Source: Gammaproteobacteria bacterium (lineage in GTDB: Bacteria > Pseudomonadota > Gammaproteobacteria > Pseudomonadales > JADFDG01). Taken from it: DNA of 64,000 nt. Position numbers and translations under genes: made by a program. The notes beneath the pieces were generated by a model. That model did not search any database. It was not told the origin of the DNA and saw only the letters and a list, made by a program, of their open reading frames with translations. Positions within the stretch are counted from its first letter, which is position 1. Every line of letters starts with the position of its first letter. Shown here piece by piece: positions 18,974-35,849 of this stretch. The stretch lies in NCBI GenBank assembly GCA_018262975.1, contig JADFDG010000005.1, forward strand, positions 1-64,000, in the 5' to 3' direction.

Positions 18974-19027
18974 CGTGGTCCATCCAAGATCGCCCGCCAC
19001 AGGTTTAATCGTAGCAATGCAGACTCA

Positions 19028-19039
19028 GGTCACGTGACC
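19028..19039. promoter_or_regulatory. 12-bp perfect palindrome upstream of an acyl-CoA dehydrogenase gene
   Basis: GGTCACGTGACC is a perfect palindrome in the 98-bp gap between the GMC and acyl-CoA dehydrogenase genes. It differs from the TTGG operators. It may bind another regulator, or be chance. Confidence 0.3.
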
Positions 19040-19071
19040 ATGACGGACACAACTCAAGGAGGACGACGTTC

Positions 19072-20256
19072 ATGCCAGCCAGCACACAGGAAAGCGCCAA
19101 CAGCGATCCGCTGAACGCACGCATCGCAACGGTTCACGAGGCAACACGTGCGATCTCCAGGCAGTTTCCTCGTTCCTACATCCTGGACTGCATAAAGGCC
19201 GACCGTTTTCCCGAGGAAATGTGGCGCGCCATGGGAAAGCAGGGCCTGCTGGGATTGTCGGTTCCCGAGGAACACGGCGGCTCAGGTGGTGGCGTGGTCG
19301 AGATCGTGGCACTTGGCGAGGCACTTGCGTTGGGGGGGGTGCCGACGCTGTTCCTGGTGGTCACAGGACTTAGCAGAGTACCGATCATTCGCCACGGCAC
19401 GGCTCAACAAATCGCAAGGTTCGTCACCCCAACCTGCGACGGTTCGGTGAAGATATGTTTCGCGATCACCGAGCCGGATGCCGGAACCAACAGTTTCAAT
19501 ATGAGTACTTTCGCTCGCCCTGAGGGTGACGGGTGGATTCTCAACGGACAGAAGGTTTTCATCTCAGGAGCCCGTGACGCCGACTACATGCTGGTGATTG
19601 CGCGTACCAGAAAGGTATCCGAGGTAAGGCACCGTACGGATGGCATGTCGTTGTTTGTGGTGGACATGAAGTCCCCCGGCATACGGCTGGATCTCCTGAA
19701 CATCCAGGTGGAGACCGCCGAGCGCCAGTACCAGGTATTTTTTGATGACGTACGCCTGCCCGCCGACTCTCTCATCGGCGAGGCTGACAAAGGCGCAAGG
19801 CTCATGTTCGAAGGCCTGAATTCAGAGCGCCTGCTCGCGGCTTCGGCAGCAATCGGCCTGGCCGACTTTGTCTTGAAAAAGGCGGTGTCTTACGCCCTGG
19901 ATCGCAAGCCATTCGGGAAACCGATCGGCAGCTACCAGGCACTACAGCACAGGCTTGCGCTGGCAAAGGCTGAACTGGAGGCCGCGCGGCTCATGACGTA
20001 CAGCGCAGCGGAGCGCTTCGATGCCGGAGAGGATGCGGGAGCCCACGCGAACATGGCCAAATTGCTGGCATCTCGCGCCGCGGCGGCCGCGATGGACGCA
20101 GCCATACAGACACACGGCGGATATGCCTTTGATCGTGACTACGACATCATTACGTTGTGGCCGATGATCCGCCTGATGGAAATTGCACCGATCAACAACG
20201 AAATGCTGCTCAACTACATCGGCGAACACGTTCTTGGGTTGCCGAAGTCTTACTGA
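19072..20256 (+). CDS. Acyl-CoA dehydrogenase 3
   Basis: A 394-aa acyl-CoA dehydrogenase. FAITEPDAGTNSFNMST and GWILNGQKVFIS form the flavin and substrate region. DRKPFGKPIGSYQALQH and the C-terminal QTHGGYAFDRDYDI are family signatures. The ATG has a very good AAGGAGG site nine bases upstream, so it may be the best-translated dehydrogenase of the block. A run of eight G residues (19332-19339) lies in the coding sequence. The downstream gene starts at the stop (TGATG), indicating coupling. The single-chain form contrasts with the paired dehydrogenases upstream and suggests a different acyl-CoA substrate. Confidence 0.85.
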   Translation: MPASTQESANSDPLNARIATVHEATRAISRQFPRSYILDCIKADRFPEEMWRAMGKQGLLGLSVPEEHGGSGGGVVEIVALGEALALGGVPTLFLVVTGLSRVPIIRHGTAQQIARFVTPTCDGSVKICFAITEPDAGTNSFNMSTFARPEGDGWILNGQKVFISGARDADYMLVIARTRKVSEVRHRTDGMSLFVVDMKSPGIRLDLLNIQVETAERQYQVFFDDVRLPADSLIGEADKGARLMFEGLNSERLLAASAAIGLADFVLKKAVSYALDRKPFGKPIGSYQALQHRLALAKAELEAARLMTYSAAERFDAGEDAGAHANMAKLLASRAAAAAMDAAIQTHGGYAFDRDYDIITLWPMIRLMEIAPINNEMLLNYIGEHVLGLPKSY

Positions 20257-20933
20257 TGGAATGCAGCTCTGGAATGTGGGGTGGTTTGAACATGATTGCG
20301 ACGTCTCCCGAATACCTGCAGGCAACCCGATTCCTTGATTTCGACAACGATGCCCTGCGGGTCTATGTTGAGCTCGTCTGCAGCGGCGCTTCGAATGATC
20401 GTGAGCGCGCCGTGGCGCTTTTCTACGCAGTACGCGATGACATTCGTTACGACCCCTACTCCTGTAACCTGACCGCGGACAGCTTGCGGGCCAGCCACGT
20501 ACTTGCGTCAGGTCGTGGGTATTGCGTCGGAAAGGCCGTGCTTCTGGCTGCAGCGGGCCGTGCCGCAGGCATACCGACCCGGTTGGGGTTTGCCGATGTA
20601 CGCAACCATTTCACCAGCCCACAGTTGGCTGAACTGATGGGTACGGACGTCTTCTACTACCACGGTTACGCCGATTTCTACCTGGGCGGGAAATGGGTCA
20701 AGCTGACCCCGGCCTTTAATCGGGAACTGTGCGATAAAATGCAGTCTCCGGCGCTTGAATTCGATGGCGAGAATGATGCCATTTTCCAGGAAATAGAGGA
20801 CGACTCCCAAGGCAGGTTGCGCATGGAGTACCTCCGCTATCACGAGCCAGTGAGCGACCTCGATCCTGAAGTCATTTTTGCCGAATACCGCAAGCGATAC
20901 CCAAGGATGATGTCCGCCTTGGGGTCGGCATGA
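20256..20933 (+). CDS. Transglutaminase-like cysteine protease-fold protein
   Basis: About 225 aa from the ATG that overlaps the previous stop (TGATG); an ATG at 20292 with GGGGTGG upstream is an alternative start. The domain is a bacterial transglutaminase-like fold: RAVALFYAVRDDIRYDPY leads in, GRGYCVGKAVLLAAAGRAAGIPTRLGFADVRNHF carries the nucleophilic Cys and probable His, and a conserved Asp-type position follows in YADFYLGGKWVKLTPAFN. Small proteins of this kind act as proteases or amidases, or modify unknown substrates. No signal peptide is present, so it is cytoplasmic. Its link to fatty or hydrocarbon metabolism is only by position. Confidence 0.7.
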   Translation: MECSSGMWGGLNMIATSPEYLQATRFLDFDNDALRVYVELVCSGASNDRERAVALFYAVRDDIRYDPYSCNLTADSLRASHVLASGRGYCVGKAVLLAAAGRAAGIPTRLGFADVRNHFTSPQLAELMGTDVFYYHGYADFYLGGKWVKLTPAFNRELCDKMQSPALEFDGENDAIFQEIEDDSQGRLRMEYLRYHEPVSDLDPEVIFAEYRKRYPRMMSALGSA

Positions 20934-20955
20934 CGGGAGGTTTGGCGCATATAAA

Positions 20956-20976
20956 GGCGCGCCTGAAGTGCGCGCC
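20956..20976. terminator. Hairpin between convergent genes
   Basis: A 7-bp GC-rich inverted repeat (20956-20962 with 20970-20976) with a 7-nt loop sits in the 48-bp gap between the convergent transglutaminase-like and hydrolase genes. AT-rich flanks but no long T-run make it a moderate terminator candidate for either strand. Confidence 0.4.
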
Positions 20977-20981
20977 ATAAA

Positions 20982-21839
20982 TCACAGGCCTTCAAGGAAC
21001 TCAATCAGCGCCTCGTTGAAGATATCGTTGCGGTCCCCGGCCACCATGTGTCCGGCTCCACCGACCGAGCGGACGATGGCACGAGGGATCCTTGTTCTAA
21101 ACTCGTCAATCACCTCGTCGTCGACCACGTCGCTCACGCCGCCCCTCAGCAGCATGACAGGCTGGGTCAGTTGTTCCGCTGCGCGATAGAGTGGCTCCGC
21201 CTGCTCCTCACGCTGCCTTACGCCGCGGAATTGCTTCAGCAACGCCGGATCCCAGTGCCAGTACCAGCGCCCATCCTCGCGGAGACGCAGGTTTTTTTTC
21301 AGGCCGGAGGCATCCGCACGCTGACTTCGCTGGGGCTGATAGGCCGCGACCGCGGACGCAGCGTCTTCCAAAGATGCAAAGCCCGACGTGTGTGCCGACA
21401 TGAAGTCCAGGATCCGCTGAACGCCACCAGCGTTGGTCCGCGGCGCTATGTCCACGAGCACCAGCGCTCGCGACACTTCACCGGCCATTTCCTCCGCGCC
21501 GTCGCCTGCGCTGGCGTTCGCCAGCAGCGAGGCCATCCCTCCCAGCGAGGCACCAACAATGACGGGCGGGGTCGATTGGTCCAGCGCGAGGGCTCGCACA
21601 TCGGCTGCGAAGTCGGACGTTTCATAGCGAGCCGCTCTACCGCTGTCCCCATGCCCGCGCAAGTCCGCGGCAATGGCCCGCCATCCTCGGGCACCCAAAG
21701 CCTCGACCGTCTTTCCCCACGCGTGGCGTGTCTGACCTCCTCCGTGAAAAAACAGTACCGGAGCACCGTTCTCGGGACCTGCGACAGTCAACGCAATCCT
21801 GATGCCATCGGGCGCTAAAAAGTATGTATCAATTGACAT
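20982..21839 (-). CDS. Alpha/beta hydrolase (esterase-like) 2
   Basis: A 285-aa alpha/beta hydrolase with HGGGQTRHAW (32-41), nucleophile S98 in GASLGG, an acid in RGGVSDVV and base H264 in GGAGHMV. The ATG at 21839 is preferred; the upstream TTG at 21857 overlaps the preceding ligase gene. It is the second gene of a minus-strand pair with an acyl-CoA ligase, so ester cleavage followed by acid activation is a natural reading. It differs clearly from the hydrolase at 7145, as it lacks that protein's long N-terminal extension. Confidence 0.8.
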   Translation of the reverse strand: MSIDTYFLAPDGIRIALTVAGPENGAPVLFFHGGGQTRHAWGKTVEALGARGWRAIAADLRGHGDSGRAARYETSDFAADVRALALDQSTPPVIVGASLGGMASLLANASAGDGAEEMAGEVSRALVLVDIAPRTNAGGVQRILDFMSAHTSGFASLEDAASAVAAYQPQRSQRADASGLKKNLRLREDGRWYWHWDPALLKQFRGVRQREEQAEPLYRAAEQLTQPVMLLRGGVSDVVDDEVIDEFRTRIPRAIVRSVGGAGHMVAGDRNDIFNEALIEFLEGL

Positions 21840-21849
21840 GGTTCGTTGC

Positions 21850-23628
21850 CTAACCAATTCGCTCTACGCCTTGCCACAATTCCGCTTCCAGTTCCTTCTT
21901 GGGCAACTTGCCCGCGAGGTTTCGCGGCAATCCCCTGAAAAGGACCTTTCGCGGCAACTTGAACCCATACAGCCCAGCCAGGCGACAGTGCTCCAGAACC
22001 TGTTCCTGCGTGACAGACGCACCCTCCACACACTGGACGACAGCCACCGGGATTTCGCCAAGATCCGGATCCGGCGCGCGCACGACCGCGACATCGAGTA
22101 CGGAGGGGTGCCTCTTGATGACATCCTCGATTTCGTTCGGAAATATGTTCACGCCGCCGGAAATGATCATCTCCTTTTCGCGCGACGTGAGGTAAAGGAA
22201 TTCGTCCTCATCGAGGTATCCGATCAATCCGTCGTCATACCAGGCCTTGCCTTCGATGACGCGATAGCAGTCGTCGGTCTTCTTCTGCTCGCCAACGTAC
22301 TGCAGGCCCATGGTCAGGGCGGACCGCAGCATCACCTTGCCTTCCTTGCCCGCAGGTACCCAGGCATTGGTTTCCGGATCCAGGATCCGGCATTGGGCTG
22401 CCCGCACTTTGCCAACGCTCCGATAGCGCTCTGGTTTCGCAGCGTAGTCTTCCGGCAACAACATGGTGATCAACCCGGTCTCCGATGCACCGTAGTACTC
22501 GTGGAAAACGTCACCGGGAGCACCACAGGAACGGAAAAGCGCATTGATCTCCTTCTTGACATGCGGCGGGCAAGGAGCGGCCGCACAGATGAGCGTCCGC
22601 ATCGAGGACAGGTCATATCTGCTTCGCTCGCCTTCCGGCAGTGCCAGAACACGCTCCAGCATGGTGGGCGCCACGAACGTCCAGTTGATGCGCTCCTCCT
22701 GTATCGCCTGCAGGAATCCCTCCGGTGCGAACTTGCCCATGGGGACAACGGTACCGCCGAACAGAAATGGCAATACCGCAACCTGGACGCCAGCGTGATA
22801 CAAGGGACCTGGAACCAGCGAACGGGCGTTCCTCGTGATGCGGTCATGCAGTGCGCCCAGACCGTACCAGCCAAGTGCGGACAACTGGCCCAGAGACATC
22901 CGCACGGCTTCCTCCCGGCTTGCGCCACGGCGCGCCTTGTCGCTGTCACCGAACATGGCCTCCTGATCGATGTTGATGAACTTCGGCGTGCCCGTCGTGC
23001 CACCGCTGTACGCCTTTGCCGACATGTGGAATCGCCCAGGCCAAAGACGCGGCGTCGCCTGCCAGATCAGGTGCTCGTAAGACAACGTACCCGGAACTTC
23101 CGCATCCTTGCCTACAACAACAATGCTCTCGAGCAGAGGCAGCTGGTTGCGTATCGACAGTAACTGCTCGACGAAAGCCATGTCCGTCATCACCATGCGT
23201 GCACCCGATCGGTTGATGCACGCCGCGAGTTCGGCAGGCTTGAGATGCCAGTTGAGCATGGGCATCAGAATGCCGGAGAGATTGCAGGCCTGGTTGATCT
23301 CGAACCAGTGACGGCTGTTGTAGAGCAGCACTGCACAGGCATCTCCTTCCCGCAGGCCTGCCAGGTGCATCGCGTCGGTGAGCCTCAGCACACGATCCTT
23401 GAACGCACCGAACGTCATCCTGAAATCGCCGTCTACGATGGCTTCCCGGTGCTCCAGCGAATCCCAGAGGGCGAGAAAGTATTCACGACCCAGCCCATGG
23501 CCAGACCGCCTGTTTCGCCACCAGGCCCTTGCGAGCGCGGATGCCATCCGCGTAGCGCCAACCTGTCCGACCACTGCGGACAGCGCCTTCCGTGCCTCAT
23601 CCGAGGTCAACACGCCAATTCTCGACAT
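21850..23628 (-). CDS. Class I adenylate-forming acyl-CoA ligase 2
   Basis: A 592-aa AMP-binding enzyme with YSGGTTGTPKF at 207-217, YYGASETG in the middle and the catalytic-lysine region NLAGKLPKKEL at the C-terminus. It is longer than ligase 1 because of an N-terminal stretch of about 50 residues. An 11-bp gap separates its stop from the hydrolase start, so they form one transcript. Family members activate fatty, bile or aromatic acids. The pocket cannot be read with confidence here. The ATG follows a GCGGAG site. Confidence 0.85.
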   Translation of the reverse strand: MSRIGVLTSDEARKALSAVVGQVGATRMASALARAWWRNRRSGHGLGREYFLALWDSLEHREAIVDGDFRMTFGAFKDRVLRLTDAMHLAGLREGDACAVLLYNSRHWFEINQACNLSGILMPMLNWHLKPAELAACINRSGARMVMTDMAFVEQLLSIRNQLPLLESIVVVGKDAEVPGTLSYEHLIWQATPRLWPGRFHMSAKAYSGGTTGTPKFINIDQEAMFGDSDKARRGASREEAVRMSLGQLSALGWYGLGALHDRITRNARSLVPGPLYHAGVQVAVLPFLFGGTVVPMGKFAPEGFLQAIQEERINWTFVAPTMLERVLALPEGERSRYDLSSMRTLICAAAPCPPHVKKEINALFRSCGAPGDVFHEYYGASETGLITMLLPEDYAAKPERYRSVGKVRAAQCRILDPETNAWVPAGKEGKVMLRSALTMGLQYVGEQKKTDDCYRVIEGKAWYDDGLIGYLDEDEFLYLTSREKEMIISGGVNIFPNEIEDVIKRHPSVLDVAVVRAPDPDLGEIPVAVVQCVEGASVTQEQVLEHCRLAGLYGFKLPRKVLFRGLPRNLAGKLPKKELEAELWQGVERIG

Positions 23629-23664
23629 GACTCCGCTCCGCTTAGGCTGATCGACGCCAGAAGG

Positions 23665-24132
23665 TCAACGCACCTTTACCGACCGACAGCGCACGCTTGA
23701 GGCAATGGTGCGGTGATCAGCGCCTGCCCAGGAAACACACAGCTGATATGTTCCGGACTTCATCGGCATATCGAACACGTAGACATACTTTCGGCCACCC
23801 AGCGACGACAATTGCTCCCGGGTCGGCATGACGGAGTAGTCGCCGATATCGATGTGCAGATGCGTGCCGGTCTTACCGGATGACATGGTATTCGTCGCAA
23901 GGTCTGCGTCGGTCTCGATGGCTACGGCCATCCGCGAATCCAGCACATCGTTGTCGGCGGGAAACGTGATCGACAGTGATGGGACCTTTACCGCAGACGC
24001 GGAGGCCGGTGCCGGTACGGCATGTTTATGCGCGTGATTGGCATGGTCATCTGCCGAATATGCCAACGGCGCCATGACGAGCGCCGGCAGAATAACAACC
24101 GCTCCGAACATACATTTGACTGTGTATTTCAT
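23665..24132 (-). CDS. Secreted His-rich protein at the end of the copper monooxygenase operon
   Basis: This 155-aa protein has a signal peptide (MKYTVKCMFGAVVILPALVMAPLAYSA) followed by a His-rich stretch, DDHANHAHKHA (28-38). The rest (THLHIDIGDYSV, YVYVFDMPMKSGTYQLCVSWAGADH) suggests a small beta-sandwich with a further HLH pair. I do not recognise a characterised family with confidence. Its place, 26 bp after the copD-like gene and on the same strand, together with the histidines, suggests a periplasmic copper buffer or carrier for the monooxygenase. The next gene downstream starts a separate function. Confidence 0.6.
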   Translation of the reverse strand: MKYTVKCMFGAVVILPALVMAPLAYSADDHANHAHKHAVPAPASASAVKVPSLSITFPADNDVLDSRMAVAIETDADLATNTMSSGKTGTHLHIDIGDYSVMPTREQLSSLGGRKYVYVFDMPMKSGTYQLCVSWAGADHRTIASSVRCRSVKVR

Positions 24133-24158
24133 GAAACCTCCTGTGATTTATATGCCTG

Positions 24159-26108
24159 CTAATGGATATGATCATCCGGTTCTGGCGGGACCATCGTGTC
24201 GCCTGCAAGACGCTCAACAGCCAACACAACGTGCTCTGGATCAATTTCAGTACTCATGTCGGCACGCCAAACCAAACGCGCACGTAAATAGCCATATCGA
24301 TCGACGACAAAGATTGCCCTTTCGACTGGCGGAACGAGGTCGGCCTTCTCGCCCTGAAAGTCGATGGTTCTCGACAACAACGCGTAAGATGCCTCTACAG
24401 CTACCGGGTCCTGCGGGACATGGAAACCACGCGGTAGCGCATTGAATTTCGCTTTCGAAACCAAAACAAACGGCATCGAACCTCCGGACTGGTCCATCGC
24501 ACTGACCATCGCGGCCACATCATCTGTGGTGCCGGCCAGCATGATCACCACCGGCGATATACCACGCCATCGCTTGAGGCTTCCGGCATCCTTCACATTG
24601 AAATCCGGCGCGGCAAGCCACGCATCGTTGCGTATAACCTCACCCGATATCACGCGGGCCTGGAAGCCCTGGGAAAACGCCCGCAAAAAGTTCACGAGAT
24701 CCCAGCGGTCCTGCGGAGAGAGCAGGCCGGAAAATCCGGGCATCCCCGACTGGGGAATACCGTGCGAGAGCCACCAGTACATGTCCCCGGCCGTGTGCAG
24801 CGCCGTGTGCGGCGCCGACAGGTCTGCCGGCGGTCGCTTCGGAACAAGCTTCGCCAGCGCCCCGTCCCCGCGCCCTCCGGTACCGTGACACGATTGGCAA
24901 TGCTGTTCGTATAGCGCGGCTCCACTGGCGATGGATTCCGCCATGTAGGCGATATCACTGCGGCGAAACGAATCGGGAAATGCCGGTACCGACGCAGACC
25001 ACCCCGCTACCGCCCCGAACAACAACACGGATGTCCCCCACGCGGCGACAACCGTTCGACGCCTGCTGAGCACCTTCGCGAGAGTCCAGCCGATGATGGC
25101 CAGACCCAGCATGAACAGGGAAGAAACCGCCAGGTGACGCAATGCCTTGTCGTCCCATATCGCATCCAGCGATACCCGGAACGGCAACCACCACTGGGCA
25201 GCATCGTGGGATGCCGGCGTCGACAGGGAGATCGCAGAGGCAGCGAAGATGACCGCCAGCACGAGCGTGAACTCGACACCTACCGTGAGGATGGCCCGGC
25301 GGCGTTGTCCCTCCAAGACCAGGTGTCCTGCATTCATTGCCCGCCGCACCCTGTTTGCAGTCCACATGACGGCCGCGACAACTAGAACCTTGATGAGCAG
25401 CCACTGTCCCCAGGAAGTACCGAGCAGGTCACCCTGCGTATCGATAAACCGGTACGACAACAGAAGCCCCGTAACGATCACCACAGCCACGCTTGCCATC
25501 GCAAGGATCGAAAAGCTTCTCATCGTTACCGTGAAACGAGATGCCGCGAACGACTCCTCCCGCAGCGTTATTGCAAAAACAAGCCACGGAACAAGCCCGC
25601 CGATCCAGAGACTCAAGGCAATAAGATGAAGCCCATGTGCAATCTGGAGTGTTGATTGCTCGCCGCTGTAGTGCCCAGTGAGCACTCCCAGCAGAATGAC
25701 CATCCCGGCCATCAGCGCCACCCCTGCGTTTGCCGGCTCGCCTTTGCTACCAAATTTTCTCCACGAAGCAACCAACCACCCGATTATCAATAACGCCAGA
25801 AAAACCCTAACCATCCATACCTGGCCAGGCAGAGAGAACAGCACGAATTCAATCATTGCACTCGTGTAGTCCGACGATGCGATGGATGTATCGGCGATTT
25901 GCCCATACTGAATCCGCATCAGCAGAAACTGGGTAATGACAAAGACACACGCCATCGTCAGGGATATTTCCCGCAGACGCTGCGTCGCAGCCAACACCTT
26001 TTCCCTGGGCTCATCACATTGATTGATCGCAATGAAAACCGGTGTAGCGAAGATCACCGCGACGGATACCGTCGACGCCATGCGCGCGGCAATCTGCAGA
26101 ACTTCCAT
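24159..26108 (-). CDS. copD: CopD-type membrane protein fused to cytochrome c and a thioredoxin-like tail
   Basis: A three-part fusion of 649 aa. Residues 1-370 form about eight to ten transmembrane helices with the CopD pattern, including GHYSGE (145-150) and IAHGLHLIALSLWIGGL (156-172). Residues 390-480 are a class I cytochrome c domain with CQSCH at 404-408 and the axial Met in SGMPGF (M456). Residues about 485-649 resemble a thioredoxin or peroxiredoxin fold but contain no cysteine, so they cannot be redox-active in the usual way. CopD normally imports copper across the inner membrane with CopC. The start overlaps the copC stop (TGATG). A heme-bearing version could couple copper import to reduction of Cu(II), which is an inference. 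Confidence 0.8.
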   Translation of the reverse strand: MEVLQIAARMASTVSVAVIFATPVFIAINQCDEPREKVLAATQRLREISLTMACVFVITQFLLMRIQYGQIADTSIASSDYTSAMIEFVLFSLPGQVWMVRVFLALLIIGWLVASWRKFGSKGEPANAGVALMAGMVILLGVLTGHYSGEQSTLQIAHGLHLIALSLWIGGLVPWLVFAITLREESFAASRFTVTMRSFSILAMASVAVVIVTGLLLSYRFIDTQGDLLGTSWGQWLLIKVLVVAAVMWTANRVRRAMNAGHLVLEGQRRRAILTVGVEFTLVLAVIFAASAISLSTPASHDAAQWWLPFRVSLDAIWDDKALRHLAVSSLFMLGLAIIGWTLAKVLSRRRTVVAAWGTSVLLFGAVAGWSASVPAFPDSFRRSDIAYMAESIASGAALYEQHCQSCHGTGGRGDGALAKLVPKRPPADLSAPHTALHTAGDMYWWLSHGIPQSGMPGFSGLLSPQDRWDLVNFLRAFSQGFQARVISGEVIRNDAWLAAPDFNVKDAGSLKRWRGISPVVIMLAGTTDDVAAMVSAMDQSGGSMPFVLVSKAKFNALPRGFHVPQDPVAVEASYALLSRTIDFQGEKADLVPPVERAIFVVDRYGYLRARLVWRADMSTEIDPEHVVLAVERLAGDTMVPPEPDDHIH

Positions 26109-26485
26109 CAGCGCTCGCCGACTGGATCAGCAACCGTGAATTCATAACCCCATTTGACGACGTGTCCATCCACCGAAAGCACGCGGTACCTGACCGTGTA
26201 TCGTCCCGGCTCCAGCGGCGGCAATGTCACCCGCAACGCTTTCGGTTCACCGTCGACACCACCCGGCTTGCCTACCCCGTCCACAGGTTCCCCGCCTGCG
26301 CGCTCCAGCGACACCGCAGACCACCTCGCCTCAACCCGCTCATTGAACCAGAGCGTCAACGTCACCGGCCTGCCGTCAGCGATTACCGTTGACCGCGGAC
26401 CTGGCTCCGCACGCACCATGGCGGAATGTGCATTGACGGCACCGGACGCCGCCATCAACGCCACGGCGAGCAGCACGCGCATCAT
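26108..26485 (-). CDS. copC: CopC periplasmic copper-binding protein
   Basis: A 125-aa CopC. A signal peptide ends at NA-HS, giving a mature N-terminal His (H20) that would be the first Cu(II) ligand. The other expected ligands, Asp and His two residues apart, are D106 and H108 in VDGHVVKWGYEFTV. The length and beta-sandwich pattern are normal. No Met-rich Cu(I) site is visible, so it looks like a Cu(II)-only form. It overlaps both neighbours by four to five bases (ATGA, TGATG), indicating tight coupling with the accessory protein upstream and the copD fusion downstream. It should hand copper to CopD or to the monooxygenase in the periplasm. Confidence 0.9.
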   Translation of the reverse strand: MMRVLLAVALMAASGAVNAHSAMVRAEPGPRSTVIADGRPVTLTLWFNERVEARWSAVSLERAGGEPVDGVGKPGGVDGEPKALRVTLPPLEPGRYTVRYRVLSVDGHVVKWGYEFTVADPVGER

Positions 26486-27063
26486 GAAGCACTGCCCTTC
26501 GTCGCGAGCCGGTACAGGCCAACGGAGACGCCAACCGCCAGCAACATGGCAACGCCGTAGGACCAGTATGTTTTCCTGCCCACCGAGAACGGGAACACCG
26601 ATGTCCTGACCTGTCCCTCGGCGTCCCTCGCGGTAACGATTCCGATGAACATCCCCGCCTCGTCGAAGCGGTGCCTGGCGCTCAGTGTTCCATGCGGGTA
26701 TTTCTTCGGCTCCAGGTGGTACACCGATGCCTTCTCGATGGCTTCAGGCCCGCCCAGGTCCTCCCATGTCGCAGTGACGCCGATCTTGTTCACATCCCGC
26801 ACGATTCTGAAATCGACGTCCATGCCTCGCAGCTCGTCGGACATGAAGTCCATCACCATGATGACATTGCCGGTGTCCGGGATATCCTCACAGAACTCCT
26901 GCGTCGAGCGCGACTCCGGAATGTATCCGGTGAAGTGTGACCTCATGTCCCCGAGCTTCATGATGCAGACATCTTCCTCTACCGACACGCCGCCGTGCCC
27001 CTGCACGTTTCCAGCAAGGGCCGACAGCAGCGCAGCACACACGAGAACTCGCGTCATATGCAT
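26482..27063 (-). CDS. Uncharacterised copper-monooxygenase accessory protein
   Basis: About 193 aa, starting at an ATG that overlaps the pmoB stop (TGATG). A GTG three bases upstream is possible. A signal peptide ends near GNVQG-HGG, leaving His23 at or near the mature N-terminus. Two conserved-looking cysteines, C33 (DVCIMKLG) and C58 (EFCEDIP), could form a disulfide or a metal site with nearby Met. A single C-terminal transmembrane helix (TYWSYGVAMLLAVGVSVGLYRLA) anchors it facing the periplasm. Genes of this size and layout often lie between monooxygenase subunits and copCD, but I cannot equate it with PmoD, whose CxxxM-type site is not evident. A copper delivery or assembly role is inferred. 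Confidence 0.6.
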   Translation of the reverse strand: MHMTRVLVCAALLSALAGNVQGHGGVSVEEDVCIMKLGDMRSHFTGYIPESRSTQEFCEDIPDTGNVIMVMDFMSDELRGMDVDFRIVRDVNKIGVTATWEDLGGPEAIEKASVYHLEPKKYPHGTLSARHRFDEAGMFIGIVTARDAEGQVRTSVFPFSVGRKTYWSYGVAMLLAVGVSVGLYRLATKGSAS

Positions 27064-28289
27064 CACATGAACACCGGAAGCATGGAACCACCGACTTCCA
27101 CATAATCGCGCGCACCATCATCGGCGTAAAAATAGAGCATCGCGCCAAAGCGGGAATCAGGATCGTAAATAAGGCTGGTCAGTCGGTAGGTTTCCCACAG
27201 CGCGTCCTCTGCGAATACCTTGATCCTGGCCGACTCACCCGCCTTGATCGGACCGCCCTCGACACGCAACCCACCCGACGCGACGAGATCATGCGAATCA
27301 GCCGGTTTGATATCGATCACCGAAGGATCAACGAATCGAACATTGGCGACGGTCAAATTTCCAAGCTTTACGTCCTTGCCTGAACGATTGTTGACATCAA
27401 GGGTCAGCTCGAAACTCCTGCCGGGAATCCGGTAGCGCGCGTCCGCAACCGTTACATCGACTTCACGGTCTGCGCTGACATCAATCTCGGGAAGATGCAC
27501 GATGCCGGTCTGCAGCGGCGTGGTGATGGGATACTCGTCTTGCGCCCAGAAGTATCCGAAGCCGATCAACGACAGCGTCACGGCGAGCAGGGTTGCCGCC
27601 ACCTTCTTGTCCGTAGGCGTGATGATGTCGTCCGCCTTGTCTCCCAACTCGGCGACACGGCGGTAGCGCGGAATGATGATCGGGCATTTCGTCAGCCAGT
27701 AGATGAACCATACGAGCCCCACGGCAAACCAGAGCAAGCTCCAGAATGCAATGTTTCCCATGCCGTAGGTTTCCAGATCGATGGTCTCACCGGTCATTGT
27801 CTTGACCGTGTTCTGGAAGTCAGCCTGGCTTCCACCCACCTCCACCCAGAACCCCGGCCCTATCACCGGCCCCGTGTCCTTGACGCTGAGCACCGGATGC
27901 ACGTGATAGCGTCCGGGCGTCCTTGCCTTGAGCGTGATGCTGTATTGATAGGTCTGCCCCTTGTAGAACCGCGTCGACCTGATCATCGGCATGCCGTTGA
28001 CCCGGGAATCCACCCTGACAAACGTCGGCCCGGGTACCCCGATGTTTAGGAACGCCGTTCCATCCGGTCCGGCCATGTGCTCCGGCCAGTTTACGGATGG
28101 AACAAACGAACCCGACACCACAACCGTGTCGTTCACGTTGAGCTTTGTCGTCGAGACGGCCGTATCGAACCAGTGTACCGTCCTCATTCGCAAACCGGCC
28201 TGCTGCGCGCGCTCTCCGTGGGCGAACGCCAGATCAGGAATGGCAGCCGCCTGGATCAAGAGAATGAAGGCAACGAGATACTTCTTCAT
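27063..28289 (-). CDS. pmoB: Copper membrane monooxygenase subunit B
   Basis: The 408-aa periplasmic cupredoxin-type subunit of a CuMMO (particulate methane/ammonia/hydrocarbon monooxygenase family). A signal peptide ends at AFA-H24, so H24 is the mature N-terminal ligand. With H129 and H131 (YHVHP) it completes the CuB site. H39 in RTVHWFD corresponds to the bis-His position of methanotroph PmoB. Two transmembrane helices follow (about 185-205 and 235-255), then the second cupredoxin domain. It starts 10 bp after the pmoA stop. Subunit order C-A-B is that of methanotrophs, nitrifiers and alkane-using bacteria, so the sequence does not fix the substrate. Confidence 0.9.
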   Translation of the reverse strand: MKKYLVAFILLIQAAAIPDLAFAHGERAQQAGLRMRTVHWFDTAVSTTKLNVNDTVVVSGSFVPSVNWPEHMAGPDGTAFLNIGVPGPTFVRVDSRVNGMPMIRSTRFYKGQTYQYSITLKARTPGRYHVHPVLSVKDTGPVIGPGFWVEVGGSQADFQNTVKTMTGETIDLETYGMGNIAFWSLLWFAVGLVWFIYWLTKCPIIIPRYRRVAELGDKADDIITPTDKKVAATLLAVTLSLIGFGYFWAQDEYPITTPLQTGIVHLPEIDVSADREVDVTVADARYRIPGRSFELTLDVNNRSGKDVKLGNLTVANVRFVDPSVIDIKPADSHDLVASGGLRVEGGPIKAGESARIKVFAEDALWETYRLTSLIYDPDSRFGAMLYFYADDGARDYVEVGGSMLPVFM

Positions 28290-28299
28290 GTTCTGCGCC

Positions 28300-29076
28300 T
28301 CAGAAGATCCGCTTGATCCAGACCGCGCGTGACGCCAACGCGCCCACCCAGGTCCAGAAGTAGTACATCAGGATCGCGAGGAATCCCGCGAACACGGCGG
28401 TAAGCGGCGTAACCGCCTCACCGAAGGTGCGCAAGGTGGACTGCTCGATTATTCGCACATATTCCGGAATCGCGGTACGGACGTATTCGTAGCCCATGAG
28501 GTCCGCCACGGTAACCAAGGTTCCGTTGTATTCGACCGGGACACGAAACGGCGCCATCAACGGCCAATTGATCGGGTAAATCAGCACGGCGAAAAAGAAC
28601 GCTCCGAACAGTCCCGTGACAAAGAAACTCCTTGTCAGCATCAGCGTGCAGTCCAGTATCAGCCCCAACCCTATGAATGTTGACGGCGACACCATGTTGA
28701 GCGGGAATCCGGCAAATATTTCGAAGTTCATGACCCGGCTCACCCACGCGGCAAGCGCGAAACTGAGCAGCGCCACCGACGCTGCCAGCGGCAATCGCAG
28801 TTTCGTCCAGAGCAGGTAACCGAAGACCGCGGGCAATACCAATAATGACAGCGGCGTCACCAGTGGCCACCAACGGCGATCGCGCCAGTCTACCCAGTAG
28901 TCCCAGTCGCCCACCGTGAGCGCAAAGTGGAAGCTGAAAATTCCAGCAAACAGCAACACGATCAGCGGTATCGCCATCAGGTCGATGTTCTTGTAGACCT
29001 GCCACTGCTGCTCTCGCGTCGTGACGGCTGATCTCGCCTTGGGGCGAGCCTCAGCAGCTTCGTTGGTATCCGTCAT
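28300..29076 (-). CDS. pmoA: Copper membrane monooxygenase subunit A
   Basis: A 258-aa integral membrane subunit with about seven transmembrane helices. Family hallmarks are GDWDYWVDWRDRRWWP near residue 57 and PVEYNGTLVTVADLMGYEYVRTAIPEY-type sequence in the second half, close to the PmoA/AmoA consensus. The N-terminal 30 residues are hydrophilic. AGAGG lies ahead of the ATG and 69 bp separate it from pmoC. Several aromatic and hydrophobic positions differ from what I recall of methanotroph PmoA, which fits hydrocarbon-type enzymes (ethane to butane or ethylene). Only a tree can decide. Confidence 0.9.
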   Translation of the reverse strand: MTDTNEAAEARPKARSAVTTREQQWQVYKNIDLMAIPLIVLLFAGIFSFHFALTVGDWDYWVDWRDRRWWPLVTPLSLLVLPAVFGYLLWTKLRLPLAASVALLSFALAAWVSRVMNFEIFAGFPLNMVSPSTFIGLGLILDCTLMLTRSFFVTGLFGAFFFAVLIYPINWPLMAPFRVPVEYNGTLVTVADLMGYEYVRTAIPEYVRIIEQSTLRTFGEAVTPLTAVFAGFLAILMYYFWTWVGALASRAVWIKRIF

Positions 29077-29145
29077 GATGCCTCTTCAATCATCGTTGTT
29101 TGTTTCGAGTTACGCCGGGCCATTGCGACCCGGCGCGTCATGCCG

Positions 29146-29913
29146 TCAGGCCTCTGCGACGTCAGTGTCGCCTTCCAGCTTCGACAGCGATATGAGCCGC
29201 GTGATGATCTGGATGAGGAATCCACCCGCAGCGAATGCAGACCAACCGAGCAACACGAATCCCCAATGGACAGGCGCGGCAAACAGCTCTTCCGCATAGA
29301 AGAATGTGTGGCCCCACTCGTTGAATCCGAGGTTTGGCATGATCATGATTGGACCGGCGACCAGAAGCGCCATCGGCATCGATACGCGCTCATGGAATTG
29401 TGGCAGCCGCGTATGCGCATAAACGAAGGCAGCCGAACCGATGATGATGAAAGCCGGAATACCGAAGTAGAAGAGTGCAATATGCGTTGGCGTGAAGTCC
29501 GTATCCCGCACCGTAACCTGGTGCCATGCGGCATCCGCCTCGGTATAGAGTGAAGCCGCGAGATAGGCGATCACCGCGAAGACGACCACAAATCCAAGCA
29601 GTACGTAGTGCCGGCGCAATTCCTCCTGTGGCGTGATGGACATGACGTTGCGGTCACGGGTCATCCACAGGTAGCCAATCACCGCGCAAAAAACCACGGC
29701 TTCGATCGCGAGCTGCGCATACAGCAAATTCATCCAGTAGATCTGGAATTCCGGTTCGAAGTAGTCGAGGCCCACCGTGAACGACGTCACGTGCTGGTAG
29801 TAGCGGTAGGCACCGAACAGTGCCAGGAGCGCGACCAGGAACGCCCCGATTCGCCCCCAGGGAACGGCCGGGGGCAACTCTGCGTTGGCCGTGACTGCAT
29901 TTGCGTTCTTCAT
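29146..29913 (-). CDS. pmoC: Copper membrane monooxygenase subunit C
   Basis: A 255-aa membrane subunit carrying the likely oxygen-activating copper site. D127-x3-H131-x12-H144 (DAAWHQVTVRDTDFTPTH) matches the CuC ligands Asp156, His160 and His173 of methanotroph PmoC. N198-x3-H202 (NEWGH) and H216 match the CuD ligands Asn227, His231 and His245. All six are intact. The ATG at 29913 is chosen for its GAGGAGG site; an upstream ATG lacks one. It is the first gene of the operon, divergent from a TetR gene, with an operator in the shared 193-bp region. Confidence 0.9.
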   Translation of the reverse strand: MKNANAVTANAELPPAVPWGRIGAFLVALLALFGAYRYYQHVTSFTVGLDYFEPEFQIYWMNLLYAQLAIEAVVFCAVIGYLWMTRDRNVMSITPQEELRRHYVLLGFVVVFAVIAYLAASLYTEADAAWHQVTVRDTDFTPTHIALFYFGIPAFIIIGSAAFVYAHTRLPQFHERVSMPMALLVAGPIMIMPNLGFNEWGHTFFYAEELFAAPVHWGFVLLGWSAFAAGGFLIQIITRLISLSKLEGDTDVAEA

Positions 29914-29963
29914 CTGCGCCTCCTCGGGCTTCCCCTGATGACCTGCCATTGAATATCAGTTGG

Positions 29964-29979
29964 TTGGGCGTCCGCCCAA
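29964..29979. promoter_or_regulatory. Operator upstream of pmoC
   Basis: TTGGGCG-TC-CGCCCAA is a perfect 7-2-7 inverted repeat with the geometry of the sites at 6167 and 7069. On the minus strand it is preceded, one base away, by TTGTCA (29986-29981), the same layout as TTGACA at 7062. It lies between pmoC and the divergent TetR gene at 30107, which is the obvious candidate to bind it. Confidence 0.75.
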
Positions 29980-30013
29980 ATGACAACTTAATGTGCGTTC
30001 AGTAGGTGCATGA

Positions 30014-30019
30014 TGTCAA
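30014..30019 (-). promoter_or_regulatory. Possible -35 element of the pmoC promoter
   Basis: TTGACA on the minus strand at 30019-30014 is a perfect -35 hexamer. No good -10 follows at 17 bp (GCACAT), so the alternative TTGTCA at 29986, abutting the operator, may be the one used. Both place the operator where a bound repressor would block transcription. Confidence 0.35.
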
Positions 30020-30106
30020 GCGCCCCAATCGGGTACGTTAGTTCCAGTTGCGGGTATACCGATCGTTCGTTTAGTGTGACCTGATCCTCGAAGCTGGAGA
30101 CTCCTC

Positions 30107-30721
30107 GTGAAATCCGCCACAACGCAATCACCGCTGGCTGGTCGCCAACGCATTCTCGAGGCCTGTACCCCTCTCTTTGCGGAAAGCGGTTTTCACGGCG
30201 TGTCCATGAGGGATGTTGCCGGGGCCGTGGGTATGACCCCGGCAGCCCTCTACTACCATTTCCCGGACAAGGACGCCCTCTACCTGGCCGTGATCGACCG
30301 TCTGTACCAGGACCGCGTGCCTGGGTTGCTGGCGCAGGTGGTTGTGGATGGGTCGCCATGGGAGCGCCTCGAAAGACTCGTCAACGGTATCGTTCAACTG
30401 AACCTGACCGACCCGAACCTGCTGCGCCTCTCGCAATGGATCCTGCTGGACAGGGACCCGGAACGTACCCGCCGGCTCGGCGAGCGCATCGTCGGTCCGT
30501 TCCTGGATGCGGTGAGTTCACTGGTTTCCGGTATCAACGACGACATAGACCCGCGCTGGGCCGCGCTTTCCGTATTCAGCCTGGTGATGCTGCCCTTTCA
30601 CGCCGCCGGGGTAACCGCCGATCTTCCCGGTTTCCGTCAACCCACGCGCGAGCCGGCCGCGCTGACAGCGCATGTGATGCAGATGCTTCGCATGGGCATT
30701 GGCAGTCGCGAGGTACGGTAA
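30107..30721 (+). CDS. TetR/AcrR family transcriptional regulator 2
   Basis: A 204-aa TetR-family protein starting at GTG with GGAG nine bases upstream. The helix-turn-helix is textbook (FHGVSMRDVAGAVGMTPAALYYHFPDKDALY). The C-terminal domain with PERTRRLGERIVGPFLDAVSSLV resembles regulators of efflux pumps and of fatty or aromatic compound use. It is divergent from pmoC and directly upstream of an RND efflux pair whose first gene overlaps its stop (TAATG). It could therefore control both the copper monooxygenase and export of its substrate or toxic products. Confidence 0.85.
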   Translation: MKSATTQSPLAGRQRILEACTPLFAESGFHGVSMRDVAGAVGMTPAALYYHFPDKDALYLAVIDRLYQDRVPGLLAQVVVDGSPWERLERLVNGIVQLNLTDPNLLRLSQWILLDRDPERTRRLGERIVGPFLDAVSSLVSGINDDIDPRWAALSVFSLVMLPFHAAGVTADLPGFRQPTREPAALTAHVMQMLRMGIGSREVR

Positions 30722-31800
30722 TGCGACGCGTCATTGCCCTTTCAATTTGCCTCGCCGCGATCCTCATCACCGCCTGCAACGAGCCCCAGCCGATTGAAAC
30801 GGCGCCGCGACAATGGCCGCTGCACGTTTTCGTTACGGAAAACGGCGTATTACGCAACTACGCTGCCATAGGCTCGGTGGTTTCCGACTCACGCATCGAG
30901 GTGTCTTCAAGACTCTCGGGCTACTTGCGCGAATTACGGGTTCGCGAGGGCGACCACGTTACCTCCGGGCAGTCTATTGCACGTATTGATGCCCCTGATG
31001 TCGATGCCGCGATTCGTCAAGCCGAGGCGGGGCGGATTGCTGCGCAGGCGGCCTTCGACGACGCAAACGTGGATCTCGAGCGATTCCGCCAATTGCAGAC
31101 CAAGGGCTTTATCTCCGACAGCGATCTGCGCAAGGCGCAACTGAAGGTTGATGCCGCACGCGAGTCACTCAACCAGGCAACCGCAGCACTCGACAACGCA
31201 CAGGAGCAACGGCGCTATGCCCACATTGCGAGCCCTGTCAGCGGGTCGGTGGTGGCGGTACTTCGCAAGCCCGGTGACCTTGTGGTGCCCGGCGCGCCCA
31301 TCCTGCTGGTGGAAGGTGGTCGCGATCTCCTGTTTGAAACCACCGTCAACGAACGCCAGGTTGCGGCACTCAAGGCAGGCCAGCCCGTCAATGTGTCACT
31401 CGACGGTATGGACCGCCCCCTGAAGGGCAGCATCGCCCGCATCGTGCAGTCCGCGGATCCTGTCACGCGCACCTATCCGGTGAAAATTGCGCTCAAGGAC
31501 ACGCGCGGCGTACTGCCAGGAATGTTCGGGCGCGCGGAACTTCCGCTCGGCCGCGAAGACGGCATGGTCCTGCCACGTGCGGCCATCGCCGAACGTGGGG
31601 GGCTCAAGGGCACCTTTGTGGTCGATGCACAACAGTCCATTCGATTCCGCTGGCTGCGCCTTGGCCGTGAGTGGCCGGACCGTGTGGAGGTACTGGCAGG
31701 CATTTCGCCAGGGGAACCGGTTGCACTTTCCGTGCCCGCCGAAGCTCACGAGGGCGACCTGGTAGAGGTGTTGGCAGAAACGACCGGGGACCGTCAGTAG
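30721..31800 (+). CDS. RND efflux periplasmic adaptor lipoprotein
   Basis: A 360-aa HlyD/AcrA-type membrane fusion protein. The lipobox LITAC places the lipid anchor at C19. The lipoyl halves flank a coiled-coil hairpin (RIAAQAAFDDANVDLERF to LNQATAALDNAQEQRRY) and are followed by beta-barrel and membrane-proximal domains. The ATG overlaps the TetR stop (TAATG), and the transporter gene begins on the adaptor's own stop. It bridges the inner-membrane RND pump to an outer-membrane channel, which is not encoded nearby. Confidence 0.85.
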   Translation: MRRVIALSICLAAILITACNEPQPIETAPRQWPLHVFVTENGVLRNYAAIGSVVSDSRIEVSSRLSGYLRELRVREGDHVTSGQSIARIDAPDVDAAIRQAEAGRIAAQAAFDDANVDLERFRQLQTKGFISDSDLRKAQLKVDAARESLNQATAALDNAQEQRRYAHIASPVSGSVVAVLRKPGDLVVPGAPILLVEGGRDLLFETTVNERQVAALKAGQPVNVSLDGMDRPLKGSIARIVQSADPVTRTYPVKIALKDTRGVLPGMFGRAELPLGREDGMVLPRAAIAERGGLKGTFVVDAQQSIRFRWLRLGREWPDRVEVLAGISPGEPVALSVPAEAHEGDLVEVLAETTGDRQ

Positions 31801-34800
31801 TGAAACCCTCAACCGGCCGCAAGACCTTTGCGGAAAAATTCAGCGTTGCCGCTTGGCTGGCCGACAGTTTTGTCACGTCGCGACTGACATCCGCCTTCAT
31901 GCTCACCTGCGCGCTCATCGGCTGCTGGGCAATTCTGGAAACGCCGCGGCAGGACAACCCGCGCATCGTGGTGCCGGCCGCCAGCGTGCGTGTCGAGATG
32001 CCAGGTGCAACCCCGGCGGAGCTGGAGGCGCTGGTCATCCGCCCCCTGGAAGCGGAGATCGCGCGCCTGCCGGCCGTCGACGATGTGGATTCGATCGCTG
32101 TCAGTTCGGTCGCGCAGATTTTCGTGACCTTTGAAACGACCGAGCGTCAGGAGGACGTGCTGACACGCCTGTACGATCGCATCGGCGCGCGCGGCGACCT
32201 GCTGCCTCCGGAGGCAGGGCCGATACTCATCCGGGGCGTGAGCGTGGACGACGTGCCCATTGTCACGCTGACACTCGCAAGTTCCCGCTACGACGACCAT
32301 GCGCTGAAGCGGGTTGCCGACCGGGTCGCGGAAGGACTGCGCACCGTGCCCGGTGCGTCGGGTGTCGAAGTGCATGGAGGTGCGGACCGCGAGTTGCGCA
32401 TCGAACTTGACCCGGACCGCATGCAGGCCTTTGGCATCACGCTCGACCAATTGCGGGCCATGCTTGCCTCGGGGAACGTGGCCGCGCCGGTCGGCACCGT
32501 GGTCCGCGACGGTACGCAGCGCGCTCTCTTCGTCGATGGATTCATCCGGAGCGCCGAGGACGTACGTCGCACCGTAGTGGGCCATTACCGCGGAAAGCCC
32601 ATCGCACTGGGGGATGTCGCACAGGTCGTCGACGGCCCGACGGAGGAGCGCACCCGCCTGTCGCGACTGGCATTCGGGCCTGCCGATCCGCGTTTCGGCA
32701 CCACGCCGGATGCCGAACGCCCGGCCGTCACGGTTGCCGTGGCTAAGGCGGCAGAAGCCAACGCCGTGTTCGTCGCCGAGGACATCCTGACGCGTGTCGA
32801 GGGGATGCAGAAGAACTTGATTCCGCCGGGAATCGATGTCGTCGTCACCCGCAATGACGGCGCGTTCGCCAATGACACGGTCAACGGATTGATCGAGCAC
32901 CTGCTGGTTGCCATTGCCGCCGTCTTCCTGGTCGTCACGATATTCCTCGGCTTGCGCCAGGCGATGATCGTCGGGTTGGGTATTCCGCTGGTACTGGCCC
33001 TGACGCTGGGGATGGTCTACATCGCCGGCTACAGCATCAACCGCGTGACACTTTTCGGGCTGATCCTGTCGCTCGGCCTGCTGGTGGATGACGCCATCGT
33101 GGTGATTGAAAACGTCCATCGGCACTACAACATGCCCGGTGTCAGGGACCGACGCGCAGCCACGGTACTCGCCACCCGGGAAATCGGTAACCCAACCAAT
33201 CTCGCCACACTCGCGGTGATGGTGGTGTTTCTGTCGCTGATTTCCGTCACCGGGATGTCTGGCCAGTTTTTCTATCCCATCGCCTACACCGTTCCGGTGG
33301 CGATGGCCTCTTCCCTCATCGTTGCTTACACCGTTGTTCCATGGGCAGCACTGCGCTGGTTACCACGCGATGCATCGCATGACGAGCACGAACACGGGGA
33401 GCGCGGGTTGTATGGATGGCTCTCCACCCGCTACCGGCGCCATGTAGGCCCCCTCATCGACAACCAGAAGCAACGGCGCCGTGCCGTGTTTGCTGTTGTG
33501 GTGCTGGTGTTCATCGCGCTACTCCAGCCGGCCTGGCAATTTGTTCGACCCGCTGGCGTCAATTCACCGATGGCCTGGTTTGGCCTCGAGATGGGCATGA
33601 TGCCCGGCGACAACAAGAACACGTTCAACATCGTGATTACGTTGCCGGAATCGGCAGCTATCGAGGAAACTGACCGTGTCGCCCGGGACGTCGGCGCGGC
33701 GCTGCGTTCCGTCCCGGAAATCCGCGACTACCAGGTGTGGATGGGCGGTTCCGGCATCATCGATTTCAACGGCATGCTGCGCGGCACAGGCGACAAGACC
33801 GGTGACAACTATGCCGAGATCCGCGTCAACCTCGTCGACAAGCACGACCGCGCGACCAAATCGCACGACGTCGTCCGCCCATTGCGGCCTATCCTGCAGG
33901 CCATCGTCGCGCGGTCGCCCGGCGCCACGGTCCAGCTGGTCGAGGATCCACCCGGTCCGCCGGTGCGGGCTAACATACACGCCGAAATCTACGGCCATGA
34001 CCCTGCCCGCATGCGGGTGGCCAGCGAAGCCGTGCACAAGGTGTTCGCGGGGACCCGCAACATCGTCGAGGTGACGGACACAGAGCCGGCCGATGTCGAG
34101 CGTTTCCGCTTTGTGGTTGACCGCGAGAAGGCAGCTCTGTCCGGCGTTACCGCCGCGGATGTGGCCACGGCACTGAGAAGACTGGTGGAAGGAGAATCTC
34201 TCGGCCGGGCGCGCATGGACGACGAACTGAACCCGGTGCCCATCCGACTGGTCATCCCTCGCCGCTACCAGATCGATCCCTCCCTGCTTGACCGCGCCTG
34301 GGTCAGCAACGCCCAAGGGGCACGCGTGCCCCTATCAGCCGTCGTGCGCACGGAACGCGACATCATCGAGCGCCCCATCCAGCGCAGAAACGGTGAGCGG
34401 GTTACCTATGTCGCGGCCGAGCCGGGTGAGTCGCCTCCCATTTATGCCGTGCTCGACATCAATCAGAAGCTGCAGGGCATGGCGCTGCCCGACGGTACGA
34501 CGCTGACCACCGGCAACCTCGGCCTGATTACAGAAGTGCCGGACACCACACAGGGAATCCAGGTGTTCTGGGGCGGTCAACAGCGCCAGATGCTCGACAC
34601 CTACCGCGACATGTTCCGCGCGCTGGGTATCGCGATCGTTCTGCTCTACCTCATCCTCGTGGCTTACTACCAGTCGTTCAGCCTGCCTGTGGTCGCACTG
34701 GCGGCCATTCCGCTGGGACTGATTGGAGTGTTCCCGGGCCACTGGATCCTCGGACAACAGTTCACGGCACCCTCAATCGTCGGCGTGATTGCGCTTGCCG

Positions 34801-35111: not shown

Positions 35112-35175
35112 TAACCATCGCCAGTAAACAATGACCTTCCCGCCTGGCCGATGCAGATATCCCAGAAGACGTGGA

Positions 35176-35295: not shown

Positions 35296-35330
35296 GGTGC
35301 CCTAGACGCCTACCCCTGAGCGAAAGACCA

Positions 35331-35785: not shown

Positions 35786-35849
35786 TCAACGGTTCATGCC
35801 GTTCGCTAGAGAGTACCTTGAAAAGCAAACTCGAACCTCAAGGCAGCCG

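Follow-up and report, generated by a model that had tools for sequence, protein, structure and literature searches.

A copper membrane monooxygenase operon outside the methane and ammonia oxidizer clades, located on an integrated island of a gammaproteobacterial genome

What does a copper membrane monooxygenase (CuMMO) oxidize in a member of the Pseudomonadales, and by what route did its genes enter the genome? These questions are raised by the xmoC-xmoA-xmoB genes in a 64,000-nucleotide stretch of a gammaproteobacterial assembly (GCA_018262975.1, contig JADFDG010000005.1), hereafter the window. It covers the opening 64 kb of contig C25 (199,803 bases) in a genome of 3.31 Mb, 29 contigs and 99.95% completeness. 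We propose as the probable explanation that a hydrocarbon-type CuMMO, together with copper and redox helpers and downstream genes, arrived on an island that integrated into a tRNA-Met gene.

The monooxygenase and its clade

29146..29913, minus strand: XmoC, with CuC ligands D127/H131/H144 and CuD ligands N198/H202/H216 in the numbering from start 29913
28300..29076, minus strand: XmoA
27063..28289, minus strand: XmoB, with CuB ligands H24/H129/H131, H39 present and V63 replacing the second bis-His histidine

The three genes are intact open reading frames (ORFs) in the order C-A-B, and their products score above the Pfam cut-offs (AmoC 281 bits, AMO 266, Monooxygenase_B 428), so that all three subunits of the CuMMO superfamily are present. 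The true start of XmoC is most likely 29913, a choice that rests on the ribosome-binding site GGAGG in front of it and agrees with the coordinates of an initial annotation made from the letters of the window; the longest ORF begins 12 codons earlier, at 29949. PF02461 detects a single gene genome-wide, and its carriers number 8 of the 293 genomes searched in the order and 11 of the 369 in the class, our own genome being counted in both.

The initial annotation described a pmoC-pmoA-pmoB operon with the CuB, CuC and CuD ligands in place. ORFs, Pfam matches, alignment to the solved chains of Methylococcus particulate methane monooxygenase (pMMO) and a multiple alignment all bear this out; the ligand residue numbers of Methylococcus capsulatus Bath (Mc. 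Bath) follow the passages of PMC12576850 that give them. H24/H129/H131 of XmoB are all kept in 41 of 43 other sequences, the exceptions, L021 and L006, being gaps from partial XmoB extraction. The complete set of six CuC and CuD ligands occurs in the XmoC of 34 of 36 others; the exceptions are L016 and L005, the latter an extraction failure that yielded no letters. Fragments or duplicates (L020, L025, L028, L093, L094, L098) were left out of this ligand table. In L016 (G061) Asp replaces the CuD Asn and the remaining five ligands are conserved. The XmoB matches of L006, L018 and L021 are split in two pieces in different frames, possibly through frameshifts or assembly errors. The claim that all ligands are intact holds for CuB, CuC, CuD and H39 and fails at one site. 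XmoB H39 corresponds to Mc. Bath H48, which we take to form the bis-His site together with H72, and the position of H72 is occupied here by V63, leaving half of a site that is not universal among CuMMOs. His stands at the H72-equivalent position in 9 of 43 other sequences, none of them within the 30-row clade that contains the window.

Where does the enzyme belong? A tree of XmoA and XmoB with 43 rows, from which L010, L028, L020, L025, L093, L094 and L098 were dropped as fragments or duplicates, places the window on its own branch within a 10-row clade (support 100/97), whose other members are seven close relatives and two copies from genomes of the window's order, one per genome (L023, L024). 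The 10-row clade is nested in the 30-row clade (100/100, branch 0.54), apart from L083, which is nearly identical to Mc. Bath PmoA, and L085, an ammonia monooxygenase (AMO) by its PDB matches. Forcing the window together with four methanotroph-side rows in an approximately unbiased (AU) test cost 226 log units (p-AU 6.6e-56), where L083 alone is tied to Mc. Bath by sequence and the methanotroph label of L084, L086 and L087 rests on the tree. Forcing it together with the AMO row, which on its long branch is the whole nitrifier side of the tree, cost 147 log units (p-AU 4.2e-6). The XmoA sequence has 65-72% identity with those of the seven relatives, 67-70% with the two copies from its own order and 35-37% with the hydrocarbon monooxygenase (Hmo) of NBB4 and Rhodococcus. 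The clade of the enzyme has support and is separate both from Methylococcus-type pMMO and from bacterial AMO; the PmoA/PmoB tree that the initial annotation had suggested, and the AU tests with it, put it outside the methanotroph and nitrifier rows.

Might the enzyme nonetheless oxidize methane or ammonia? It has the fold, the ligands and the order of subunits of such monooxygenases, CuMMOs are promiscuous, and XmoB passes the NCBIfam AmoB cut-off (512.8 vs 336). However, XmoA and XmoC reach neither the corresponding AmoA and AmoC cut-offs nor any of the four AMO/pMMO cut-offs tested, and all three subunits fall below the cut-offs of the TIGR pMMO/AMO models. The initial annotation had seen no methanol, formaldehyde or hydroxylamine genes in the window, and had held that methanol or hydroxylamine oxidation genes elsewhere in the genome would count against its reading; no such genes turned up. 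Hydroxylamine oxidoreductase was not detected in the genome by a model that matched the control genomes G623 (three matches) and G438 (one), a first search having matched neither the genome nor any control. No methanol/ethanol dehydrogenase dependent on pyrroloquinoline quinone exceeded the cut-off in the genome (best 30.7 bits vs 480, in a search that had no positive control), and formaldehyde genes were outside the search. On the tree, the AU tests and these two negatives we rejected methane or ammonia oxidation, which we consider highly improbable. Because the clade stands apart from pMMO and AMO and neither enzyme was found, the substrate is likely neither methane nor ammonia. The idea of a hydrocarbon rather than methane or ammonia is upheld in its exclusions and stays a hypothesis as regards the hydrocarbon itself. 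The case is a caution against taking pmoA-like genes as a sign of methane oxidation.

Copper and redox genes of the seven-gene operon

The range 23665-29913, initially annotated as a monooxygenase operon, contains the three subunits but holds seven genes, not three, all in one direction: xmoC-xmoA-xmoB-xmoD-copC-copD/cyt c-155-aa gene. Those that follow xmoB are:

26482..27066, minus strand: XmoD, a PmoD homologue of 194 aa, with a C-terminal membrane helix judged by eye and a Cx9HxnC sequence
26108..26485, minus strand: CopC (PF04234, 64 bits)
24159..26108, minus strand: CopD fused to a c-type cytochrome, 649 aa, with CQSCH at residue 404 and a C-terminal extension
23665..24132, minus strand: 155-aa protein with a His-rich N-terminal part and no Pfam match of its own

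The homology of XmoD to PmoD is apparent from a match to 6cpd (E 3.5e-17). Its Cx9HxnC departs from the described CuA motifs (Cx7MxHxnC or Cx8MHxnC), with Met at neither place, and the Met is absent from the XmoD of the close relatives as well. Polycyclovorans (L042) and Nevskia (L050) each have, some 35 kb away from the first operon, another and divergent xmoCAB-xmoD operon; its XmoA is 39-41% identical to that of the window, and its XmoD keeps Cx8MHxnC.

Models for CopD and for cytochrome c both match all eight aligned fusion proteins, the window's included, and the fusion is a concrete candidate for copper and electron supply to a CuMMO. A limited literature search, a thin basis for novelty, found no earlier description of it in a CuMMO operon. 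The C-terminal extension (about residues 495-649 in the window) has an invariant H..H end, and in one of the eight members it gives a weak AhpC/TSA match (E 0.19); it may be thioredoxin-like. The predicted model of the fusion protein had a mean pLDDT of 58.5 and was not used. For the 155-aa family, DUF4399 matched weakly in two of six aligned members (best E 0.0046). A fold search with its model (pLDDT 74.9) returned generic beta-sandwiches at low TM-scores, with CopC at rank 33, and was not used to assign a function.

How widely is this arrangement shared? The seven close relatives are Solimonas, Stagnimonas, two Panacagrimonas, Polycyclovorans and Nevskia (six Nevskiaceae) and Aquabacterium. 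The order xmoC-A-B-D-copC-copD/cyt c is found in every one of them, and the 155-aa gene, at E 1e-6, in five. Four Porticoccaceae loci and NORP74, a set that includes short loci, contain xmoD and gave no match for copC or copD, and NORP120 (L008) has a match to neither xmoD nor copC/copD. Since pmo operons with pmoD, copC and copD are described in passages of PMC6189053, the gene order itself is known.

30107..30721, plus strand: TetR-family regulator, divergent from xmoC

No inverted repeat was found in the intergenic region between xmoC and the TetR gene, and a promoter and terminator scan gave matches no more numerous than in shuffled sequence. Adjoining the TetR gene, a resistance-nodulation-division (RND) efflux pump (PF00873) and a presumed membrane-fusion protein, so labelled on inspection and on a 41% match in Solimonas, lie within 30358-35111; the pump perhaps exports solvent or product.

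Catabolic neighbours and the substrate

2707..4287, minus strand: Baeyer-Villiger monooxygenase (BVMO) 2, motif set complete
11736..13319, plus strand: BVMO 1, start uncertain, last motif position Arg
13373..14923, plus strand: acyl-CoA ligase, 67% identical to one near Nevskia xmo
14986..16158, plus strand: acyl-CoA dehydrogenase, best model PimC large subunit (411 bits, cut-off 624)
16187..17320, plus strand: acyl-CoA dehydrogenase, best model PimD small subunit (274 bits, cut-off 653)
17363..18973, plus strand: glucose-methanol-choline (GMC) oxidoreductase of alcohol dehydrogenase type
19072..20256, plus strand: third acyl-CoA dehydrogenase, 81-83% identical near xmo in Stagnimonas, Polycyclovorans and Nevskia
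20982..21857, minus strand: alpha/beta hydrolase, 47-50% identical near xmo in four relatives
21850..23628, minus strand: AMP-binding acyl-CoA ligase, behind the operon

The Baeyer-Villiger enzymes and CoA ligases reported initially are indeed present in the surroundings, two of each. The BVMOs are 42% identical to each other, and their closest solved relatives are BVMOs. The two GxGxxG/A motifs and FxGxxxHxxxW(P/D), which we take to be the type I Baeyer-Villiger signature, are complete in 2707-4287. Also to the left of the operon are a short-chain dehydrogenase, two PF10118 proteins and two 4HBT thioesterases, and the alpha/beta hydrolases total two. In comparisons that ignored matches covering 40% of the query or less, Stagnimonas, Polycyclovorans and Nevskia have the PimCD-like pair near xmo (62-63% and 44-45%). 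The hydrolase 20982-21857 likewise has counterparts near xmo in those three and in Aquabacterium, and the GMC gene in Stagnimonas and Aquabacterium. Beside xmo in Stagnimonas there are an aldehyde dehydrogenase, a thiolase, two MaoC-type hydratases and a short-chain dehydrogenase, all of which recur in relatives. A BtrH/DarH-like acyltransferase and a transglutaminase-like protein (9641-10759 and 20157-20933) are located inside the catabolic cluster; the transglutaminase-like protein also has counterparts near xmo in Aquabacterium and, as two copies, in Stagnimonas.

What are the implications of this gene set for the substrate? The BVMOs, the GMC dehydrogenase, the CoA ligases and the PimC/PimD-like enzymes suggest a ketone/lactone route, whose substrate and order of steps we infer from sequence. 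XmoCAB, assembled as the trimer of heterotrimers typical of CuMMOs, would use the CuC/CuD region of XmoC to hydroxylate a hydrocarbon other than methane; quinol, a known electron source of the CuMMO family, is the likely reductant. XmoD, CopC, the CopD-cytochrome c fusion and the small, presumably periplasmic 155-aa protein would supply copper and perhaps electrons. The GMC or short-chain dehydrogenase would take over the alcohol product; if this is secondary or cyclic, the ketone formed from it would go on to the Baeyer-Villiger enzymes, and the alpha/beta hydrolases would cleave the resulting ester or lactone. The acid would then be activated by a CoA ligase and oxidized, with the PimC/PimD-like enzymes acting first. 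In its fullest form the proposal, which we put forward tentatively and hold to be rather doubtful, is a self-contained transferable island on which the CuMMO works in series with BVMOs and dicarboxyl-type acyl-CoA dehydrogenases, so that a ring or chain is opened via a lactone or ester from a secondary or cyclic alcohol. If true, the substrate range of CuMMOs extends to cyclic or branched hydrocarbons, and a CuMMO can move along with the downstream pathway and with dedicated copper and redox helpers, the CopD-cytochrome c protein included. One literature search found no paper that mentions both a copper membrane monooxygenase and Baeyer-Villiger enzymes.

Several observations weigh against this explanation. 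The methanol dehydrogenase negative stands without a positive control, none of the 14 control genomes having passed the cut-off, and the window's clade, as sampled in the tree, includes to our knowledge no enzyme with a tested substrate. BVMOs are absent from the xmo loci of the relatives save one 32% match in Solimonas, and both Panacagrimonas loci are without the catabolic set, with distant matches to an acyl-CoA dehydrogenase and a ligase; the BVMOs may therefore be unrelated cargo. The PimC and PimD matches fall below the model cut-offs, no aldehyde dehydrogenase was seen among the window genes scanned, and the left end of the island lies on another contig, the join being unassembled.

Two other substrates have to be considered beside the one that we favour. 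Terminal hydroxylation of gaseous or short n-alkanes or alkenes (C2-C6), with the BVMOs and PimCD-like enzymes as separate cargo, is a narrower case of a hydrocarbon monooxygenase that overlaps our explanation, and we regard it as a serious possibility, though not the leading one. Known non-methane CuMMOs use such gases: passages of PMC8784404 report the HMO of Mycolicibacterium NBB4 as active on C2-C4, and the Haliea enzyme, from an ethylene-using strain, is described as acting on ethylene, ethane and propane in part of PMC4036023. Furthermore, a CoA ligase lies behind hmoCAB in NBB4 as it does behind the operon of the window, and the BVMOs beside xmo are not conserved. Yet the Hmo of NBB4 and Rhodococcus are distant in the tree, and the conserved neighbours include PimC/PimD-like and thioesterase genes that gases would render superfluous. 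Alternatively, the enzyme might oxidize ketones beside the Baeyer-Villiger enzymes, like PMO3 of Methylacidiphilum, which oxidizes acetone according to passages of PMC8630023. The BVMO and GMC genes on the island would suit this role, but the BVMOs would compete for the same ketone, and the tree contained no PMO3 sequence; we consider it unlikely. A CuMMO of unknown function is mentioned for Solimonas aquatica in a passage of PMC6215863, and a phmo of unknown clade was expressed in n-pentane incubations according to one of PMC12510462.

The integrated island and related systems

1..39403, no strand: island part in the window, with about 2 kb more at the end of contig C27
37878..39251, minus strand: tyrosine integrase at the right island end (PHROG 1, E 4.8e-22; Pfam match under cut-off)
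39404..39453, plus strand: right attachment site, the 3' half of a tRNA-Met(CAU), displaced; the intact tRNA-Met of C27 shares its first 24 bases exactly

An integrase, a displaced tRNA fragment and, on a different contig, an intact tRNA with an identical core delimit a stretch of deviant composition. The displaced half has no 5' half, and ARAGORN calls no tRNA there; the intact tRNA-Met on C27 has the 24-base core in common with it and a different 3' end. The displaced half is the better partner for the 5' acceptor strand, with six Watson-Crick pairs and one GU against five and two for the half that now occupies the site. Just right of the restored tRNA, a 20-base sequence from near the integrase occurs again. 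In 4-kb bins, G+C is 0.56-0.63 over 1-40 kb and 0.65-0.70 from 40 to 104 kb (about 0.59 vs 0.67), and the tetranucleotide distance from the 44-104 kb stretch amounts to 0.26-0.42 within the island and 0.14-0.22 outside. A palindrome, GTAGAGAGGGGGCCATGCCCCCGA...TCGGGGGCATGGCCCCCTCTCTAC, resembling repetitive extragenic palindromes (REP), has 64 matches in 32 clusters in 39,405-104,000 of C25 and none in 1-39,404, where 19.5 clusters are expected at the outside density (window sites 39469-63441, also L062, L063 and L105). Its first C25 copy directly adjoins the displaced half, and on C27 there are four matches left of the tRNA and none to the right. To the right of that tRNA, G+C drops to 0.56-0.59, and the contig ends 2 kb further within an ORF that by eye is a transposase; a break in this transposase-like ORF probably explains the assembly gap. 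If C25 and C27 adjoin, the island measures at least 41 kb. At its left end in the window (113-1975) are mobile-element genes for a RecE-like phage exonuclease (PHROG 434, E 5.8e-76) and a Gp3-like protein (PF18897).

Is the element nevertheless no integrated island, its composition shift and tRNA piece being old debris? The contig join is unassembled, excision was not seen, an insertion sequence lies at the break, and XmoA is equally close to same-order and Nevskiaceae copies, so that XmoA identity by itself gives no sign of a foreign source. Against this stand the integrase adjoining the displaced half, the restored tRNA-Met with its identical core, the lack of the repeat inside and the cargo described next; we see very little chance that the island is illusory. 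With no 16S match in the assembly, relatedness was judged from RpoB, of which our genome provides the N-terminal part (400 aa read, 389 columns compared). Identity is 64.5-67% to four Nevskiaceae, 71-77% to five genomes of its own order and 65-67% to two further ones; Stagnimonas, with 31 comparable columns, was left out of the RpoB tree, and Polycyclovorans (L005) and Porticoccaceae 640 (L011) gave no RpoB match. One cargo gene is 83% identical to that of Nevskia, where RpoB is at 64.5%; this gene, if no other, was transferred horizontally. When plasmids were searched with a BVMO, an acyl-CoA dehydrogenase and the integrase as queries, all matches stayed below 60% identity.

Lateral transfer of CuMMO operons is well known from passages of PMC6215863, in which Khadka et al. 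also make the case that acquisition of xmoCAB must be preceded by genes that detoxify the product and extract electrons. As monooxygenase, copper genes and a plausible downstream set lie on one island, arrival as a package, which we envisage on the integrase-bearing element inserted in the tRNA-Met gene, can be tested. CuMMO operons occur on plasmids. In the literature, pmo genes are reported on a megaplasmid, and passages on phage-like islands make no mention of pmo. One small literature search found no earlier report of an xmo operon on a tRNA-integrated island; the location of the xmo cluster on an integrated element is what is new here.

How does the locus compare with known systems? The CuMMOs of alkane-using Betaproteobacteria, reportedly treated by Rochman et al. 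in 2020, those of Haliea ETY-M and those of SAR324 probably belong to the same broad non-methane branch as the window. The operons of pMMO and bacterial AMO have subunit order, copper ligands, PmoD, CopC and CopD in common with it, but the window falls in a different clade, its CopD carries a cytochrome c, its XmoD is without the motif Met, half of its bis-His site is missing, and no hydroxylamine enzyme, nor any methanol enzyme over the cut-off, was found. In Methylosinus trichosporium OB3b the pMMO operon is given as continuing with pmoD-copC-copD-pCuAC in a passage of PMC6189053. The hmoCAB genes on plasmids of Mycolicibacterium chubuense NBB4 and Rhodococcus WAY2 are likewise a CuMMO on mobile DNA with a CoA ligase behind, although far off in the tree. 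Closest are the Nevskiaceae and Aquabacterium operons (L002-L005, L007, L014, L015), which share clade and gene order with the window in all seven cases and several of its catabolic neighbours in four, whereas two BVMOs, with a single 32% counterpart in Solimonas, and the tRNA-Met island set the window apart from the fetched regions of these relatives.

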